Shown: piece after piece, positions 2,576 to 60,560 of the stretch
Position numbering within the stretch: the first letter of the stretch is position 1
How the letters are laid out: each line of letters begins with the position of its first letter
NCBI RefSeq assembly: GCF_008935075.1
Contig: NZ_CP044545.1
Location: forward strand, 833,501 to 897,500
DNA length: 64,000 nucleotides
Source of the DNA: Pradoshia sp. D12
Lineage (GTDB): Bacteria; Bacillota; Bacilli; Bacillales; Pradoshiaceae
Reading direction: 5' to 3'
Position numbers and translations under genes: made by a program
The notes under the pieces: generated by a model
Databases searched by the model: none
What the model was told of the DNA's origin: nothing
The model's input: the letters and a program-made list of their open reading frames with translations, nothing else

Positions 2576-5554
2576 TTGATTATAAAGAAAATACATATAT
2601 ATGGATTTGGTAAATTTGTAGACTACAAACAAGAATTAACATCAGATATAAATGTATTCTACGGAGAAAATGAGGCTGGTAAATCAACGATTTTTTCCTT
2701 TATCCATGCCATGTTATTTGGATTCCCTGCTAAGAACCAAACAACAGCCTCCTACGAACCGTCGGGGAGCGGCCGGTATGGTGGAAAACTGGTCATTGAG
2801 CTCCCTGAAATAGGTGAAATAACGATTGAAAGAGTTAAAGGGCACCAGGGTACAGAATGTGGAGTTTATAACAGGTTTGGGAGAATAGGGGGGGAGGAGA
2901 AAATAAAAGAATGGTTGAAGGGAGTCGACCGAAACTTCTATGAATCTATATACTCCTTTAATCTAGACGGCTTGCAGGATATCTATCGTCTGGAAGAAGA
3001 TCAATTGGGCAAATATCTCTTTTTTGCTGGCATGAGTGGCAGTGAAAGGCTTTGGGAGATGGAAGCAGGCTTGCAAAAGCAAATGGACAGTCTATTTAAG
3101 CCAGGTGGAAAGAAGCCTATTCTGAATCAAAAGCTGGCTGAATTAAAGCAAAGCTCCCAGGCAATTCAAAAAGCAAGGGAGAAAGAGAAAAGCTATAATA
3201 CCTTTTTGAGCGAAGAAAGGGAACTAAGTAAAGAAATTTCGCTCACTCAAGAACAAATAGAGCGAATAAAAACGAACTTAATTCATTTAAAGGACTGGAA
3301 GAGACTGTTGCCATCCATTCAGGAGCTTGCTTCCATTGAAGTGCGCCTGTCAGAATTAGAAGAATCTCCTTTTCCGGTAAATGGGATGGGGCGCATGGGA
3401 AAGATAGAGGCTGAAAGGTCGGCAAAGGAAACATTTCTGCAAACTCAGTTAAATAAATTGAAAGTACTCCAAAATGAAAAGGATTCCCTCCAAGTCAATG
3501 AACAGTGGCTGGCAAGTGGGGAGAGGGTATGTCAAGCCGAGCTTTATAGTGATAAATTGATCATCCTACTCGAAGAAATTAGGACTCAATCGATCGAATT
3601 AAAGCATATAGAGGATAAAATCATTAAGCTTCAGGGAGAATTACATACACAATTTGATCCTGTTATGGTTGAAAGTTTTGATACAAGTATCTTTCGGAAA
3701 GAAGAAATTAAACAGATAGAATTAGAGAAGCATACACTTGCCAAGAAGAAGATGGAGCTTGATGCTCAGCTTGAAAAAGAACGAGTCAAATTGGAACAAA
3801 TCGAGCAAATCACTGAAATTTATGAGAGAAAATTGCTGCCTGAAAATGAAAGAGAAAGGCTTAAAAGAATAGTAGAGCAGTATGAACATGCTGACAAGGC
3901 AGCACAGGAAGAGAAGTCAGCCAAGGAAGTCATCCAGCGATTAAAGCAACGAAGGAATCAAGCGTTGGAATCAGAGAAAAAGGGTAAGAAAAAACAGAAA
4001 GTTATTCTGGGCTCGGTCTTACTGGCTTCCATTTTGGCGGTTCTTTTATTAATCTTAGGCGGACAGCTTGGCGTTGCATTGATTGTGGCGGTTGTTGGTA
4101 TCGTACTCGTTATATATATAAATTCGATGAATGGCAATCAATTGCAATCTGAGGAATTAGCGAAAGAAATTAACTACTATGAGGAAATTGTAAAAAAATC
4201 ATCTTCGATTTCAATTGATGAACAAAGCTACAGAATGCAAAAAAGTATGCTTGAAGAGGATACGGCAAATCGAGAAAAATACAAGCTGGAATCACTGCGC
4301 AAAGAACAACAGGAAGCAATATTTGACAGTTTAATTGATTCCTTTGAAGAATGGGAAAAAGAGTTGGCGCTTTGTAAACATAAATTGATTACGCTCGGAA
4401 ATGAATGGTCATTGCCTAATGAGGTGTCATGTACGATGCTTTCAGATGCTTTTGAGCGAATTGAACAAATTAAAAACCTTATGTTGGAGAAGAGCAAACT
4501 CATTTCATTGCTTGCTTATACAGAGGAGAAAAAGGATGAGTATATCCGCTATATAGGGAAGCTTTCAGAGGAATTTGGTGTTACGGGCACTCAAAGTATC
4601 GAGCAAATAAACTACTCTATTGTTCAGAAGTACAAAGAGAATGAATTGGTCAATAGGCAAAAAAATAATATGCTCGAAAAAATACAGGAGCTCGAGGAAG
4701 AAATTATACCTTTAAAGGACTTGTGCAGACAGCTAAATCAAGAAAAGCAGCAATTGCTTCAGGAAGCAGATTGTCATGAAGTGGAAGGGTTCTATCAGCG
4801 CGGTAGAGATGCCGAAGAAAGAAGTCAGCTCAGCATAGCAAAGAGACAATTGATTGGGCAGCTGGGACGTTATGCAAATCTCGATCAGTACCATTCTGTT
4901 ACAGACTTGGTTTTAAAGGATAGAATTGAGGAACAAGAGGCTGAGCAGTCTTCCTATGAATCAACATTAAATCGGTTACGAAAAAGACTTGCAGAGGTAA
5001 AGTACGAGATAAATAGGCTTGAGGAGGATGGAACAGTAGAGGCGTTGCTTCATAACCATCAGCTTTTAAAACAGGAATTTCAAGTGTTGGCTAAGAAGTG
5101 GACAACGCTCAGCCTCATGAAGGGGACTCTGGCTGAGTCTATAACGACGTATAAAGAAGAAAAACTGCCTGCAATTATTGAACAAGCTAATGGGTATCTA
5201 CGTAACCTTACGAATGGAAGATATGAAAAAATCCTATTCTCAGAAAATGGTGAGGGACTCTCTTTATTGGACCATAGGGGATTAGAGGTTCATTCGAAAA
5301 ATTTGAGCAGAGGGACGGCAGAACTTACTTATGTATCTATAAGGCTTGCTTTAGCGGGTACGATTGATGGAAGAAAAGAATGGCCGCTGATCATGGATGA
5401 TACGTTTGTCAATTTTGATGATAAGCGAACGGAAAGAATGATTTCTCTATTAAAGCATATTAGTAAAGAGGGGAATCAGGTTCTCTTTTTTACCTGCCAT
5501 GATCATATTGCTGCGATGTTTAATGGGCAGAATATCATCCAATTAACAAGATGA
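2576..5554 (+). CDS. yhaN: SbcC/Rad50-like ATPase YhaN with central membrane-type hairpin
   Basis: A 992-residue SMC-like ATPase. The Walker A motif GENEAGKST is at residues 30-38. Two long coiled-coil arms follow, then a signature-like [18 protein letters not shown] and Walker [13 protein letters not shown] near the end. Where Rad50 has its zinc hook there is instead a strongly hydrophobic segment (about residues 478-517) that looks like one or two membrane helices, a known feature of the YhaN group; it suggests a membrane-tethered complex. The TTG start at 2576 has GAGGAG eight bases before; the ATG at 2571 hits a stop at once. Partner of yhaO. The stop codon region carries the promoter of yhaM. 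Confidence 0.9.
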
Positions 5555-52723: not shown

Positions 52724-52758
52724 TTGATAACCATTATCATTTATGATAATATTATTCA
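52724..52758 (+). promoter_or_regulatory. Promoter with Fur box, hydrogenase-like/ABC operon
   Basis: TGATAACCATTATCA (52725-52739) matches the Bacillus 7-1-7 Fur box TGATAATnATTATCA at 13 of 14 defined positions. It overlaps TTGATA (-35) of a promoter with TAATAT at 17 bases. A second TGATAAT half-site (52744-52750) makes an overlapping ATTATCAT/ATGATAAT dyad. PerR and Zur boxes are similar, so Fur is the best but not the only reading. Confidence 0.75.
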
Positions 52759-52807
52759 GAAATAATTTTGTTAATCTTTATCACTTCTAATTAGAAAGGA
52801 GAAGGAA

Positions 52808-53431
52808 GTGAAAAAATATATTTGGCTAAATCCTGTTGTTTTAAAAATGTATGAACAGGAAGAATTATATTCTACCTTAGAATGCTTAGATTTTCAGGTT
52901 GTTACTTGTGAGGAAAATCACTTGATGACTGTGAAAAATAAATACAAAGAGCGATACGAAGGATGTAATCAGCTCCTTTGTGATAATAGATGTCCTAAAG
53001 CAATTTCCTATGTAAAAACTCATTATGATCAAATTGGCCAGGAGTACGCTACTATCCAACCAATCTTAATTCATTGTGCTGAAGAACTGGCTAATAGATA
53101 TAAAGATGATGATGCAGAACTATATATCATCACTCCTTGTACAGATTTAAAAGACCTAGGAACTAGCTTGGCATTGAAAAATACGATATTTCAAACATGG
53201 ACTGAATTTTGCAGAGATCACCAAATCAAGCTTAATAGTAAACCAACTGAAAACAGTCCGATTCCACCAGGCTTTTTTGATAATATCCCTAATGTAGTCA
53301 GCCTTGCATCGAAGGATGATATTGATTGCTTTTTCCAGAGTACTCCTAAGCAAGAAAAACAATTAATAGAAATGTTATATTGCCAAGGTGGCTGCCATAA
53401 TGGAGATGGAGTTAGGATAACAAATGAATAA
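52808..53431 (+). CDS. Stand-alone [FeFe]-hydrogenase-like iron-sulfur protein
   Basis: 207 residues. The four H-cluster-cubane cysteines are visible: L1-like DNRCPKAISYVKTHY (C62), L2-like ITPCTDLKDLG (C111), L3-like IEMLYCQGGCHNGDG (C192, C196). The proton-relay Cys before C62 is replaced by Arg, and the L2-L3 segment is much shorter than in true hydrogenases. It has eleven Cys in all and no signal peptide. GTG start with AAAGGAGAAGGA. The stop overlaps the permease start by 8 bases, tying it to the importer. No HydE/F/G maturase nearby, so H2 activity is unlikely; an Fe-S role in iron or substrate handling is inferred. Confidence 0.72.
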   Translation: MKKYIWLNPVVLKMYEQEELYSTLECLDFQVVTCEENHLMTVKNKYKERYEGCNQLLCDNRCPKAISYVKTHYDQIGQEYATIQPILIHCAEELANRYKDDDAELYIITPCTDLKDLGTSLALKNTIFQTWTEFCRDHQIKLNSKPTENSPIPPGFFDNIPNVVSLASKDDIDCFFQSTPKQEKQLIEMLYCQGGCHNGDGVRITNE

Positions 53432-54185
53432 TCTTATAAAAAGATTGATACCGATTGCTTGTATTTTAATCGCATGGTATTTATGCAGCTATTTCGAAGT
53501 TTGGAGTGCCTATATTCTGCCTAGTCCAATGCAAGTATGGAATACCTTTGTATCAATGGTACAAAACGGAGAATTATTTATTCATATCTTTGCAAGTTTA
53601 TATAGAGTACTAGTCGGCTTTTCGATTGCCTTTGTATTCGCCTTTTTTCTAGGCATCATTGCTGGTTTAAAGCCTGCCCTTTCTCCTTATTACAATCATA
53701 TTGTGGAGTTCTTCAGAAATGTACCTCCACTTAGCCTGATTCCCTTGCTAATTTTATGGGTTGGTATCGGAGAAGAATCCAAAACAATCATAATCATTTT
53801 AGCTTCCTTTTTTCCAATGTTTTTAAATATAAAAAAGGGCTTTGGTTCTTGTGATTATAAGCTTTTGGAGGTCGGAAAAGTTTTAGGATTAAATCCAAGG
53901 CAACGTTTTCTGAAAATAATTCTTCCGTCTGCTGTCCCAGATATTCTTTTAGGAATGAAGGTTGGCCTGGGATATAGCTGGAGAGCTATTATTGGTGCTG
54001 AAATGATTGCCGCTGCAAGCGGTTTGGGGTACTTCATATTGGATGCGCAGACGATGTCTCGCTCTGATAAAGTGATTGTGGGAATTCTGGTGATCGGCCT
54101 CCTGGGAGTCATCTGCGATAAAATTTTCTCGTTCTTTAGCAAGAAATTCACTCGTATTGGAGGTATAGACAATAGCTGGGATTAA
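53424..54185 (+). CDS. ABC transporter permease (SsuC/TauC type)
   Basis: 253 residues, about six membrane helices. ABC-import signature EMIAAASGLGYFILDAQ with the family's EAA-like loop (EVGKVLGLNPRQRFLKIILP). Of the nitrate/sulfonate/taurine-type permease family. ATG overlaps the hydrogenase-like gene. Substrate unknown; the Fur box suggests an iron-linked ligand. Confidence 0.9.
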   Translation: MNNLIKRLIPIACILIAWYLCSYFEVWSAYILPSPMQVWNTFVSMVQNGELFIHIFASLYRVLVGFSIAFVFAFFLGIIAGLKPALSPYYNHIVEFFRNVPPLSLIPLLILWVGIGEESKTIIIILASFFPMFLNIKKGFGSCDYKLLEVGKVLGLNPRQRFLKIILPSAVPDILLGMKVGLGYSWRAIIGAEMIAAASGLGYFILDAQTMSRSDKVIVGILVIGLLGVICDKIFSFFSKKFTRIGGIDNSWD

Positions 54186-54879
54186 AATAAATCAACTTTA
54201 TAAAAGTTTTATGGTAGATGGAAAAAAGCATGATGTTTTAAAAAATGTTAATGTCGAATTCCCTCAGAATAGCATCAGTGTCATTCTCGGAAAAAGCGGA
54301 TGTGGGAAGACGACACTCCTGCGCATATTAGCCAATCTGGAGCAATGCGATGCAGGAGAAGTGTCCATTAATAGCAATGAAAAAATTAGCTTTGTATTTC
54401 AAGAACCCCGTTTGATGCCATGGTTACCCGTATCTAAGAACATTACATTCGGTTTAGAAAAACAAAAGATTAATGATGTGGAAATAGAAGAGTTAATGAA
54501 TTTGATAGGATTAAAAAAGTTTGAAAAAGCCTATCCACACCAATTATCCGGAGGCATGCAACAAAGAGTCGCATTAGCAAGAGCATTAGCCTATGACCCA
54601 TCCTTTATCTTAATGGATGAACCATTTGCTGCACTCGATTATTTCACACGTGAGGCAATGCAGAAAGAATTAATAAGAATTAACCAACTAAAAAAGAAAA
54701 GTATAATCTTTGTTACCCATAGTATCGAAGAAGCCATAGCAATAGGACAAAATATCTTTGTAGTTAATGAAGGAAGGATTCATGCTCAATTTAACTTAGA
54801 GCAATATGAATATCCAAGAGATGTATTATCGCCTTCTCTAATAGAAATAAAGAAAAACATCATAGAAAAACTAGCGTGA
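54172..54879 (+). CDS. ABC transporter ATP-binding protein (SsuB type), probable AUA start
   Basis: 235 residues if started at ATA 54172, eight bases after GGAGG; this gives AGIKINQLYKSF, the expected first strand. The first ordinary codon, ATG 54211, would delete that strand and has no ribosome-binding site. Walker A LGKSGCGKTT, Q-loop QEPRLMPWL, signature LSGGMQQRVALARA, Walker B ILMDEPFAALD. The gene would overlap the permease by 14 bases. Confidence 0.85.
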   Translation: MAGIKINQLYKSFMVDGKKHDVLKNVNVEFPQNSISVILGKSGCGKTTLLRILANLEQCDAGEVSINSNEKISFVFQEPRLMPWLPVSKNITFGLEKQKINDVEIEELMNLIGLKKFEKAYPHQLSGGMQQRVALARALAYDPSFILMDEPFAALDYFTREAMQKELIRINQLKKKSIIFVTHSIEEAIAIGQNIFVVNEGRIHAQFNLEQYEYPRDVLSPSLIEIKKNIIEKLA

Positions 54880-54893
54880 GAGTGGGACATAAA

Positions 54894-55880
54894 ATGAAAA
54901 AATGGTTATTATCTTTACTTGCTTTACTGAGCATATCAGTTATCGTTGCTTGTGGAAAAGATACCGATTCTGATAAGAACAGTACAAAAAATAACGAGGA
55001 GAACACGTATACTGTTGATAAGGTGCAGACAACTTATGTGCAATCTCCTTTAAATATTCCTTCTATTGTAGAAAAGGAAAAAGGATTGTTGGCCAATTCT
55101 TTTGCGGAAGAAGGGATTGAATTCGGCTATTCCAATTTAACAACCGGCCCTGAACAAACTCAGGCTTTGGCTTCAGGTGATATCCAATTCCTGAATGCAG
55201 TCGGTGCCACATCTGTCATTTTATCTGCATCGAATGGAGCGGATATCAAAATTATGAGCATGTATAGCCGTTCTCCTGAGGCTTTCATGTTATTTACAAA
55301 CCTGAAAGATATTAAATCACCTGAAGATCTAGCAGGGAAAAAAGTTGCTGGTCCAAAGGGAACAATTTTACATGAACTGCTTATCAATTATTTAGCAACT
55401 GAAGGCTTAACAGAAAAGGATATTGAATTTGTTCAAATGGATATACCTTCTGCACAAGCAGCGTTAGTAGCAGAGGAAGTCGACTTTGCGTTACTAGCTG
55501 GCCCTACCGCATATAATATGATTCAAGATGGGTACCAGGTGGTTACAAATGGTGAAGGGCTGGTCGATGGAACAATTGTAGTTGCAACTAGTGAAGATTT
55601 CTACTCGAAGAATCCTGGCTTAGTAAAGAAATTTTTACAAGTACAAGAAGAGACACTGCAATATATCGATGAAAATTATGAGGAAGTCATGGAAATTACA
55701 GCAAAGGAAACCGAACTACCTCTAGATGGTGTAAAAGAAATGTATGAAATGTATGACTTCAATATGGAAATCAAACCATCAGATATCGAGAGTATGGAAA
55801 AAACAGTGAAATTCATGAAAGAGAATAATATGATCGAAAATGATATAGATATTGAGTCCTTAATTTTAGATGTAGAATAA
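54894..55880 (+). CDS. ABC substrate-binding lipoprotein (SsuA/NMT1 type)
   Basis: 328 residues. Signal peptide with lipobox VIVAC, then a type-2 binding fold: LTTGPEQTQALASGDIQFLN, KIMSMYSRSPEAFMLF, EDLAGKKVAGPKGTILHELL. Such proteins bind sulfonates, thiamine precursors, riboflavin or similar ligands. GTG 54876 overlaps the ATPase stop; ATG 54894 gives the normal signal peptide. Last gene before a terminator. Confidence 0.88.
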   Translation: MKKWLLSLLALLSISVIVACGKDTDSDKNSTKNNEENTYTVDKVQTTYVQSPLNIPSIVEKEKGLLANSFAEEGIEFGYSNLTTGPEQTQALASGDIQFLNAVGATSVILSASNGADIKIMSMYSRSPEAFMLFTNLKDIKSPEDLAGKKVAGPKGTILHELLINYLATEGLTEKDIEFVQMDIPSAQAALVAEEVDFALLAGPTAYNMIQDGYQVVTNGEGLVDGTIVVATSEDFYSKNPGLVKKFLQVQEETLQYIDENYEEVMEITAKETELPLDGVKEMYEMYDFNMEIKPSDIESMEKTVKFMKENNMIENDIDIESLILDVE

Positions 55881-55884
55881 TAGT

Positions 55885-55922
55885 AAAAAGCATGTTTCTG
55901 TATCAAGAAGCATGCTTTTTTT
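55885..55922 (+). terminator. Terminator of the hydrogenase-like/ABC operon
   Basis: AAAAAGCATG pairs with CATGCTTTTT, with T7. Confidence 0.9.
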
Positions 55923-59010: not shown

Positions 59011-60216
59011 TTATACTTGAATATAATAACTTCTTTTCGAATGATCAGATATAACAAAATTAATGACCAGCCCCAACAGGAAAAAAATAAAGGAACCCAT
59101 GATATAAACAGGGCGAATATCAAATAGTTCGGCAGATAATCCAATTAAGGCTGTACATATGATGATTAAAACTGCCTCTAGCATCCCTAAGACACTGGAG
59201 AATCTGCCCATAATATCTACAGGCACATTGTTTTGGTAGAAGGTTAAAAAGCCTGTATTTGCAAATGATAAAGAAAATGTTAAAACGAAAAATCCTATTG
59301 AAGCCCATATAAAATCGTTTGAAAAGGCAAAGATTAGATAACCAATCGGAGTGAAGAACGCTCCAAGTCCCATTAGTACATTTATTTTCAATTGATTCGC
59401 AAAGATTGTATTTACTAGTGAACCCCCAATGATTCCTGCACCGGCAATACTAACAAGAAATCCATAGGTACTTTCGGATAAAAAGAGAACTTTGGTTGCA
59501 AATGCAGCCTCTAATGAATCTAAGGCAGACATACATACAGACATTCCGCTAAACAGAATATATATTAATGTTATATGTTTATTTGTTTTATTGAATTGAA
59601 GGATGATTCTCCAATCATTCACCATTAATGAAGGTTTAATTTTTTCATATATACGATCTTCACTCCCAAATTCTACATTTGGAAGAAACAAAATAATGAT
59701 TACTGAAAAGAACAAAGCGAAAGAATTTATTTGGATTGCTAAATTAGGAGAACCAATGATAAAAAGGAAGCCCGCTATGGAAGGCCCTAGTATAAAACCA
59801 CAGGAATTAATAAAATTTCGCATGGCATTAAATCGTTGTCGATTTGTTTTTGGAATTAATTTTGTCATGTAGACCATTGAGGTTGGTTCAAAAATAGACC
59901 TGGCAATATTGATGATAAATACAATGAAGTAAATAAATGGAAGTGAATCTAAAAACGGTAAGATAAAAATAAAAATGGCTCTTATAATATCTAGATAAAT
60001 CATGAGCTTTCTTTTATTGAACCGATCAATTAAAGTCCCAGACCAGAAATTTGTACATAAGGATGCAATAGGCAATAGGATATATAGGATAGAAACGGCT
60101 AAGGGTGATTCTGTCTTATCCAAAATAATTAAATTTAATGCAATCAAATAAATCCATGCACCAACATTCGATACTCCAATTCCAAGTAAGAGTAAAAGGG
60201 GGTATTTCCACTTCAT
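59011..60216 (-). CDS. MFS transporter under T-box control
   Basis: 401 residues, twelve membrane helices, starting MKWKYPLLLLLGIGVSNVGA; the first half has DRFNKRKLMIYLDIIRAIFI, typical of the enterobactin/macrolide-efflux (MFS_3-like) branch. ATG with GGGAGTGG. The leader 60252-60560 is a T-box with terminator, so expression should rise when a specific tRNA is uncharged; that argues for an amino-acid-linked substrate rather than a drug. Confidence 0.86.
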   Translation of the reverse strand: MKWKYPLLLLLGIGVSNVGAWIYLIALNLIILDKTESPLAVSILYILLPIASLCTNFWSGTLIDRFNKRKLMIYLDIIRAIFIFILPFLDSLPFIYFIVFIINIARSIFEPTSMVYMTKLIPKTNRQRFNAMRNFINSCGFILGPSIAGFLFIIGSPNLAIQINSFALFFSVIIILFLPNVEFGSEDRIYEKIKPSLMVNDWRIILQFNKTNKHITLIYILFSGMSVCMSALDSLEAAFATKVLFLSESTYGFLVSIAGAGIIGGSLVNTIFANQLKINVLMGLGAFFTPIGYLIFAFSNDFIWASIGFFVLTFSLSFANTGFLTFYQNNVPVDIMGRFSSVLGMLEAVLIIICTALIGLSAELFDIRPVYIMGSFIFFLLGLVINFVISDHSKRSYYIQV

Positions 60217-60251: not shown

Positions 60252-60560
60252 AAAAAAGTCTCACCTCCAAGGTTAACAACCTTGGGGACGAGACTTTTGG
60301 AATTTAGTAGTTCGCGGTGCCACCCCAGTTTATTCCTGTGTCGCCACAGAAATCTTTTCGAGTACGCAGGACAAGGCCTGGTTATACTCTATCTCTTTAA
60401 CGGGAGAAACCGACGCATAATCAATATCAGATGAAATATCCTATACGAAGCTCCGAGACTTGGTTCGGCGGGCTATTACATCCTCCATTCTCAGCTACTG
60501 GAGTTCTCTGTTATGCTTAAGCGCGCTTACTCTTCTTTTCATCGCTTTTTCCTTATTATG
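60252..60560 (-). ncRNA. T-box riboswitch leader
   Basis: On the minus strand: an AGAGAAC box and stem I region, the T-box GGGGTGGCACCGCG (60311-60326 on plus), and a terminator (AAAAGTCTC ... GAGACTTTT T) at 60252-60298. The specifier loop reads CCGAACCAAG, so the codon is AAC, ACC or CCA depending on register. The UGGC bulge would pair with a tRNA having G at position 73, which favours Asn (AAC). Confidence 0.9.

Follow-up and report, generated by a model that had tools for sequence, protein, structure and literature searches.

The window analysed here, a 64,000-nucleotide stretch of the genome of Pradoshia sp. D12 (contig NZ_CP044545.1, positions 833,501 to 897,500 of the forward strand), carries at 52808-55880 a four-gene operon for a 207-residue hydrogenase-like protein, an SsuC/TauC-type permease, an ATPase, and a lipoprotein binding protein (SBP). 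The four genes form a conserved module that is also found in anaerobes, including C. difficile. Judged by its sequence profile, the first product is a hydrogenase domain descended from the catalytic domain of [FeFe]-hydrogenases, with the residues of the diiron pocket lost; it probably still binds a [4Fe-4S] cluster, and the promoter appears to be controlled by Fur. Our reading, which we hold at a probability of about 0.45, is that the operon encodes an iron-starvation uptake system in which the hydrogenase domain, now without its cofactor, receives the ligand after import or processes it.

All four cysteines that a previous, sequence-only reading of this DNA had likened to those of the [4Fe-4S]H cluster (C62, C111, C192, and C196) are present in the window protein and are invariant in the 20 full-length proteins of its family, together with D59, R61, P63, P110, L114, G195, N198, G199, and G201 (locus L048 holds a fragment and was left out of these counts); no homolog lacking the four cysteines was therefore encountered among the 20. 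The Pfam domain PF02906 (Fe_hyd_lg_C) covers residues 20-115 with 28.1 bits against a cut-off of 22.1 (E = 1.9e-6). When the family was aligned by hhalign with 18 true hydrogenase domains (H-domains; 18 of the 37 PF02906 rows, from five genomes), the profiles matched with a probability of 98 over 211 columns, along the full length and with the cysteines in register, the E-value of this comparison referring to a single pair. The pocket is where the family departs from its presumed ancestors. Position 114, that of the PCTxK lysine holding the diiron site (K358 of CpI), is leucine in 20 of 20 family proteins, versus lysine in 16 and arginine in 2 of the 18 H-domains. Arg61, likewise found in 20 of 20, occupies the position of the proton-relay cysteine (C299 of CpI), as the sequence-only reading had it; this position is also variable among the 18 H-domains. 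The likeness to the H-domains of CpI and HydA is thus one of full-length alignment and cluster cysteines, whereas the family proteins are about 207 residues long without ferredoxin domains, carry arginine and leucine at the two pocket positions, and in Pradoshia occur in a host without HydF. Among the H-domains themselves, those of L049 and L052 read TSCSP rather than TSCCP in motif 1 by pattern match, with serine at the expected cluster cysteine.

The structural comparison also suggested by the sequence-only reading gave a divided answer. An AlphaFold model of the hydrogenase-like protein, built with two sequences, reached a pLDDT of 56. With this model, the six top rows of VIA-align were [FeFe]-hydrogenases (Z 7.0 to 6.5), with unrelated proteins close behind from Z 6.3 and every row under Z 8; Foldseek returned no match at E ≤ 0.001, and hydrogenases were absent among the 50 matches listed. 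The fold result being weak, the family assignment rests on the sequence profiles. An analogy by description, rather than by sequence, is Nar1/CIAO3/IOP1, a eukaryotic Fe-S trafficking factor derived from hydrogenases that has no diiron cofactor; according to PMC12621388, clusters of other kinds can occupy its cavity. Two [4Fe-4S] sites are present in Nar1, which serves in cytosolic Fe-S assembly, whereas the 207-residue protein has one site and belongs to an importer operon.

No second PF02906 domain was found in the window's genome at E ≤ 0.001, a threshold that also missed the window's own copy, and no HydF scored over its cut-off anywhere in the genome, so that a normal hydrogenase, which the sequence-only reading had already doubted, is excluded. 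Its statement that no maturase is present can be extended genome-wide for HydF; HydE and HydG lay outside the search of that genome. HydF was present in 8 of 10 genomes tested, the exceptions being the Pradoshia genome and G618. The latter contains true hydrogenase domains, yet no HydF over the cut-off.

Hydrogenase-like gene, permease, ATPase, and SBP follow one another in this order in 19 of 21 loci; the two misses are L048, whose fragment lacks importer genes, and L015, where the gene stands alone (3974-4624), flanked by rRNA genes on a contig of 7.8 kb, an arrangement that probably stems from assembly. Whole-genome searches in clostridial groups found matches in 5 of 391, 2 of 249, and 16 of 297 genomes (overlapping genome sets, each count including the centre genome). 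Within the window's own order, the other 298 of 299 genomes gave no match, two genomes of the same genus among them; a search of GTDB contigs added one named relative, and viral contigs held no relatives. The four proteins of the nearest relative, L046, are 45, 67, 52, and 63% identical to those of the window. Genes outside the four are common only to close relatives, save one small gene: directly after the SBP gene, 2 of the 19 loci (L045, 9267-9812; L047, 2916-3449) encode a protein of 177-181 residues with no Pfam match. The G+C content of the operon (0.359, versus 0.360 for the window) gives no sign of recent transfer, and only the distribution speaks for horizontal transfer.

The candidate Fur box TGATAACCATTATCA on the window promoter, one mismatch from the 7-1-7 consensus TGATAATNATTATCA, was confirmed in place (Table 1). 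As a count it is not remarkable: the window has four sites at up to two mismatches versus 1.66 expected, and 7 of 100 shuffles reach four. Across the 3.93 Mb genome, which has three Fur-family genes, 18 places match with at most one mismatch versus 2 for a reversed-pattern control. At the 13 of these 18 that were examined with their flanks, the Pfam content of adjacent genes includes, apart from the operon itself, an ABC ATPase, an imelysin/M75 protein that we take to be of the EfeO type, a Peripla_BP_2 siderophore-type SBP with an esterase gene opposite, and a pyridine-nucleotide reductase; other places adjoin PTS-like, LtaS-like, old yellow enzyme, and AhpC genes, which are not obvious iron genes. 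Across the loci of the family, 16 of 20 have a Fur-like site with no more than two mismatches in the 150 bases that precede the start, versus 0.23 expected from shuffles, six of the 16 (L035-L040) being near-identical.

The sequence-only reading could not say whether this gene pairing had been described. It had, as rows of a table: PMC6311696 gives C. difficile CD630_29920-29890 as an iron hydrogenase-like protein, ssuC2, ssuB2, and ssuA2, four genes in the matching order, the first listed as 'Uncharacterized protein, iron hydrogenase-like'. In the same tables the four genes rise by log2 2.60-3.53 in low iron and by 4.38-6.10 in a fur mutant, an iron response of the kind that had been predicted for the window operon. 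One of our loci, L040, carries, identical in all 40 bases, the SigH promoter that PMC7438776 gives for CD2989, and therefore comes from C. difficile or a very near relative. It encodes a full member of the family (hydrogenase-like protein about 33% identical to the window's) and has all four genes in the window's order. Upstream, at -37, is TGATAATAATATTCA, with two mismatches to the 7-1-7 consensus, versus one for the window box; it agrees at every position with the consensus TGATAATVAWHWTCA of PMC6311696, which makes a direct effect of Fur on the C. difficile operon plausible. The Pradoshia genome, in which neither a further PF02906 domain nor HydF was found, differs here from G1000, the source of L040, which has HydF.

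The genes of the window operon are tightly packed. The hydrogenase-like frame overlaps the permease ATG by eight bases (53424-53431), and the permease/ATPase and ATPase/SBP pairs overlap likewise; what had been called a fusion by overlap is therefore an overlap of genes, with no protein fusion. Neither ATG nor GTG nor TTG stands at the conserved start position of the ATPase gene, and GGAGGT together with homology to L012 places a probable ATA start inside the permease end. For the SBP the likely true start is the ATG at 54894, and the lipobox cysteine is residue 26 of the long form. Promoter-like sites number 21 in the region versus 14.6 expected, so that the argument for the promoter is its position and not the count. 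Rfam families were absent near the operon, in the window and in the 20 loci scanned, and a weak search for a riboswitch upstream of the operon gave only a sub-threshold match. Elsewhere in the window, a T-box leader (60281-60551, minus strand; 94.1 bits, cut-off 93) precedes an MFS-type frame (59011-60216, minus strand).

Table 1 Features of the operon in the window and of related importer loci (window coordinates unless a locus is named).
Feature	Position	Strand	Basis or remark
Candidate sigma-A-type promoter, TTGATA-17-TAATAT, TG ahead of second hexamer	52724-52752	+	Consensus match only
Candidate Fur box TGATAACCATTATCA, 1 mismatch from TGATAATNATTATCA, covers first promoter hexamer	52725-52739	+	Position class conserved among relatives
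Second Fur-like site TGATAATATTATTCA, 3 mismatches, covers second promoter hexamer	52744-52758	+	
Third Fur-like site TGTTAATCTTTATCA, 2 mismatches	52769-52783	+	
Hydrogenase-like gene, 207 aa, GTG start, four Cys, without H-cluster pocket residues	52808-53431	+	PF02906, hhalign, 20-member family
ABC permease gene, SsuC/TauC/SaoP class	53424-54185	+	PF00528; NCBIfam SsuC below cut-off
ABC ATPase gene, probable ATA start 54172, GGAGGT 54159-54164 upstream	54172-54879	+	PF00005; start inferred
SBP lipoprotein gene, SsuA/TauA/NMT1 class	54876-55880	+	PF09084; nearest solved structures SsuA/TauA
Intrinsic terminator, hairpin and T-run	55885-55920	+	-19 kcal/mol, z -6.4
Importer genes within HydE/HydG/HydF clusters	L088 70-6211; L089 230-5745; L090 3783-9027		
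FeoB gene, then 239-aa gene, then paralogous importer	L083 285-6402; L098		C. difficile-type genomes

The permease, ATPase, and SBP are all of the SsuABC/TauABC/NMT1 class, in keeping with the SsuABC-type importer of the sequence-only reading, and none of them passes an NCBIfam equivalog cut-off. The SBP scores 144.2 bits to SsuA (cut-off 163.5), and SsuA and TauA are its closest solved structures both by sequence and by fold; the permease scores 158.5 bits to SsuC (cut-off 347) and, second best, 157.7 to SaoP (cut-off 295); the best match of the ATPase is SaoA with 183.7 bits (cut-off 360). The operon differs from SsuABC/TauABC systems in starting with the hydrogenase-like gene and in lacking, across the loci read, an adjacent gene for desulfonation such as SsuD or TauD, and from the Sao importer (SaoA, SaoP, SaoX) in that no selenoprotein partners were seen in the operon. 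The SBP fold also matches ThiY/Thi5; a thiamine-precursor importer was set aside, there being no TPP riboswitch, which is weak evidence.

The same importer also exists without the hydrogenase-like gene. Queried with the SBP family, 28 of 297 genomes gave copies above 400 bits, the next group falling below 160; the hydrogenase-like gene is in 15 of these 28 genomes and absent from 13, and nine have a second SBP copy. Sixteen of the 22 gene-less SBP copies were examined (six were left out), and no member of the hydrogenase-like family was found near any of the 16. Three of them (L088, L089, and L090) lie in clusters with HydF and a TM1266-type regulator, two of which also contain HydG and two HydE; the HydE frame of L088 runs off the end of the locus and stays below the cut-off, and in L088 and L089 the regulator gene stands between the ATPase and SBP genes. 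Two more (L083 and L098) adjoin FeoB. Together, these neighbors link the importer class to iron and hydrogenase maturation. A Fur-like site with at most two mismatches was found upstream of the permease in 0 of 15 gene-less importers. In a tree built from SBP and permease, importers with the hydrogenase-like gene fall on either side of the midpoint root, which makes repeated loss of that gene the simpler reading. A hybrid cluster protein gene adjoins the four-gene operon in L012 (1506-2792) and a gene-less importer in L094 (1046-2692).

Where an SsuABC-type importer shares its operon with a cytosolic protein, that protein is usually the enzyme acting on the imported compound, as with SsuD and TauD. 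Given this analogy, and given that the Fur box accompanies the hydrogenase-like gene, we consider it most likely that the protein receives or processes the ligand, which would be connected to iron or its thiolate ligands. With ample iron, Fur would keep the promoter shut; in low iron, the four genes would be expressed together from one overlapping message, the lipoprotein would capture a small ligand outside the cell, and the SsuABC/TauABC-type permease and ATPase would import it. The cytosolic hydrogenase-derived protein, with one [4Fe-4S] site kept and the diiron pocket lost, would then receive the ligand or process it.

Two other readings of the operon deserve weight, although we regard both as unlikely. 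In the C. difficile papers, the system is a sulfonate transporter under sulfur-iron co-regulation (PMC6311696), and another group, going by unpublished RNA-seq, proposes cysteine (PMC5767170). On that account the operon is an ordinary importer for sulfur supply, the substrate is a sulfonate, taurine, or a cysteine-type compound, the iron response is a side effect of the sulfur-iron link, and the hydrogenase-like protein is a minor accessory. The SBP fits such a role, with an SsuA family score under the cut-off and SsuA and TauA as nearest structures; the lack of desulfonation genes in the loci read, the HydEGF and FeoB neighbors of the gene-less sister importers, and the Fur-like sites at 16 of 20 operons, among them that of L040, whose site matches the consensus of PMC6311696, argue the other way. 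Alternatively, and in our estimate rather doubtfully, the protein could be an iron-status gate that, loaded with its cluster, inhibits the permease/ATPase and releases it on losing the cluster under iron starvation, the first place of the gene and its overlap with the permease gene fixing the stoichiometry. The hydrogenase-like gene is indeed always first and overlaps or abuts the permease gene in many loci, its product is cytosolic without enzyme-like extra domains, and Fur-like sites go with it (16 of 20 versus 0 of 15); against this, the invariant surface surrounds the cluster motifs, which would equally be expected of an active site or a binding site, and iron is already sensed by Fur at the promoter.

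Further readings are less probable by degrees. It is improbable that the importer class carries a ligand of the hydrogenase-cofactor type (an iron-thiolate, or a diiron/dithiolate fragment or building block), feeding HydE/HydG/HydF in one branch, while in the Fur-controlled branch the emptied hydrogenase domain holds it in the former diiron place and releases iron or sulfur; if so, starved bacteria would salvage organometallic iron. A working minimal [FeFe]-hydrogenase, for which PF02906 scoring over its cut-off might speak, is very hard to reconcile with leucine for the diiron-pocket lysine and arginine for the proton-relay cysteine in 20 of 20 proteins and with a host genome that has no HydF. 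A chance co-occurrence, in an AT-rich genome, of four cysteines with a Fur-like site, suggested by the unremarkable site count across the window, is refuted by the conservation seen in 20 proteins and at 16 of 20 promoters, and we give it practically no credence.

Several observations weigh against the reading of the operon as an iron-starvation uptake system whose hydrogenase domain acts on the ligand. Because 13 of the 28 SBP-bearing genomes have the importer alone, the hydrogenase-like protein is dispensable for transport as such, and the SBP most resembles proteins for sulfonates and taurine, ligands that contain no iron. The hydrogenase fold is weakly supported by the predicted model. The nearest relative, L046, and L015 have no Fur-like site, and L014 and L034 have one only at three mismatches. 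The C. difficile study calls the Fur effect indirect because no Fur site was detected there (PMC6311696). For the gene-less importers, the Fur scan covered only the region upstream of the permease gene, which in L088 and L089 lies inside a longer gene row with its promoter outside the scan; contigs break off within L093 and L097, leaving the absence of an adjacent hydrogenase-like gene unproven there, while a genome-wide search found none. The link to HydEGF may also reflect a single event, L088, L089, and L090 being neighbors on the tree.

In the open-access literature, no paper was found that describes this family as such, the Fur boxes at its operons, or the link to HydEGF; papers under subscription lay outside this scope, and absence from them is unproven. 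New here are the gene-less sister importers without a Fur box (0 of 15), of which 3 of 16 stand in HydE/HydG/HydF clusters and 2 of 16 beside FeoB. Evolution would here have retained a hydrogenase domain to partner an importer used in iron starvation, and this in a genome that has no hydrogenases. For an operon ranked iron-responsive in three C. difficile transcriptomes, the analysis defines a testable family, and it offers a candidate site for direct control by Fur where published work had found none. The HydEGF and FeoB gene context suggests that the ligand is connected with iron or with the maturation of hydrogenases, and identifying it would reveal either a new source of iron or a new input to H-cluster synthesis.

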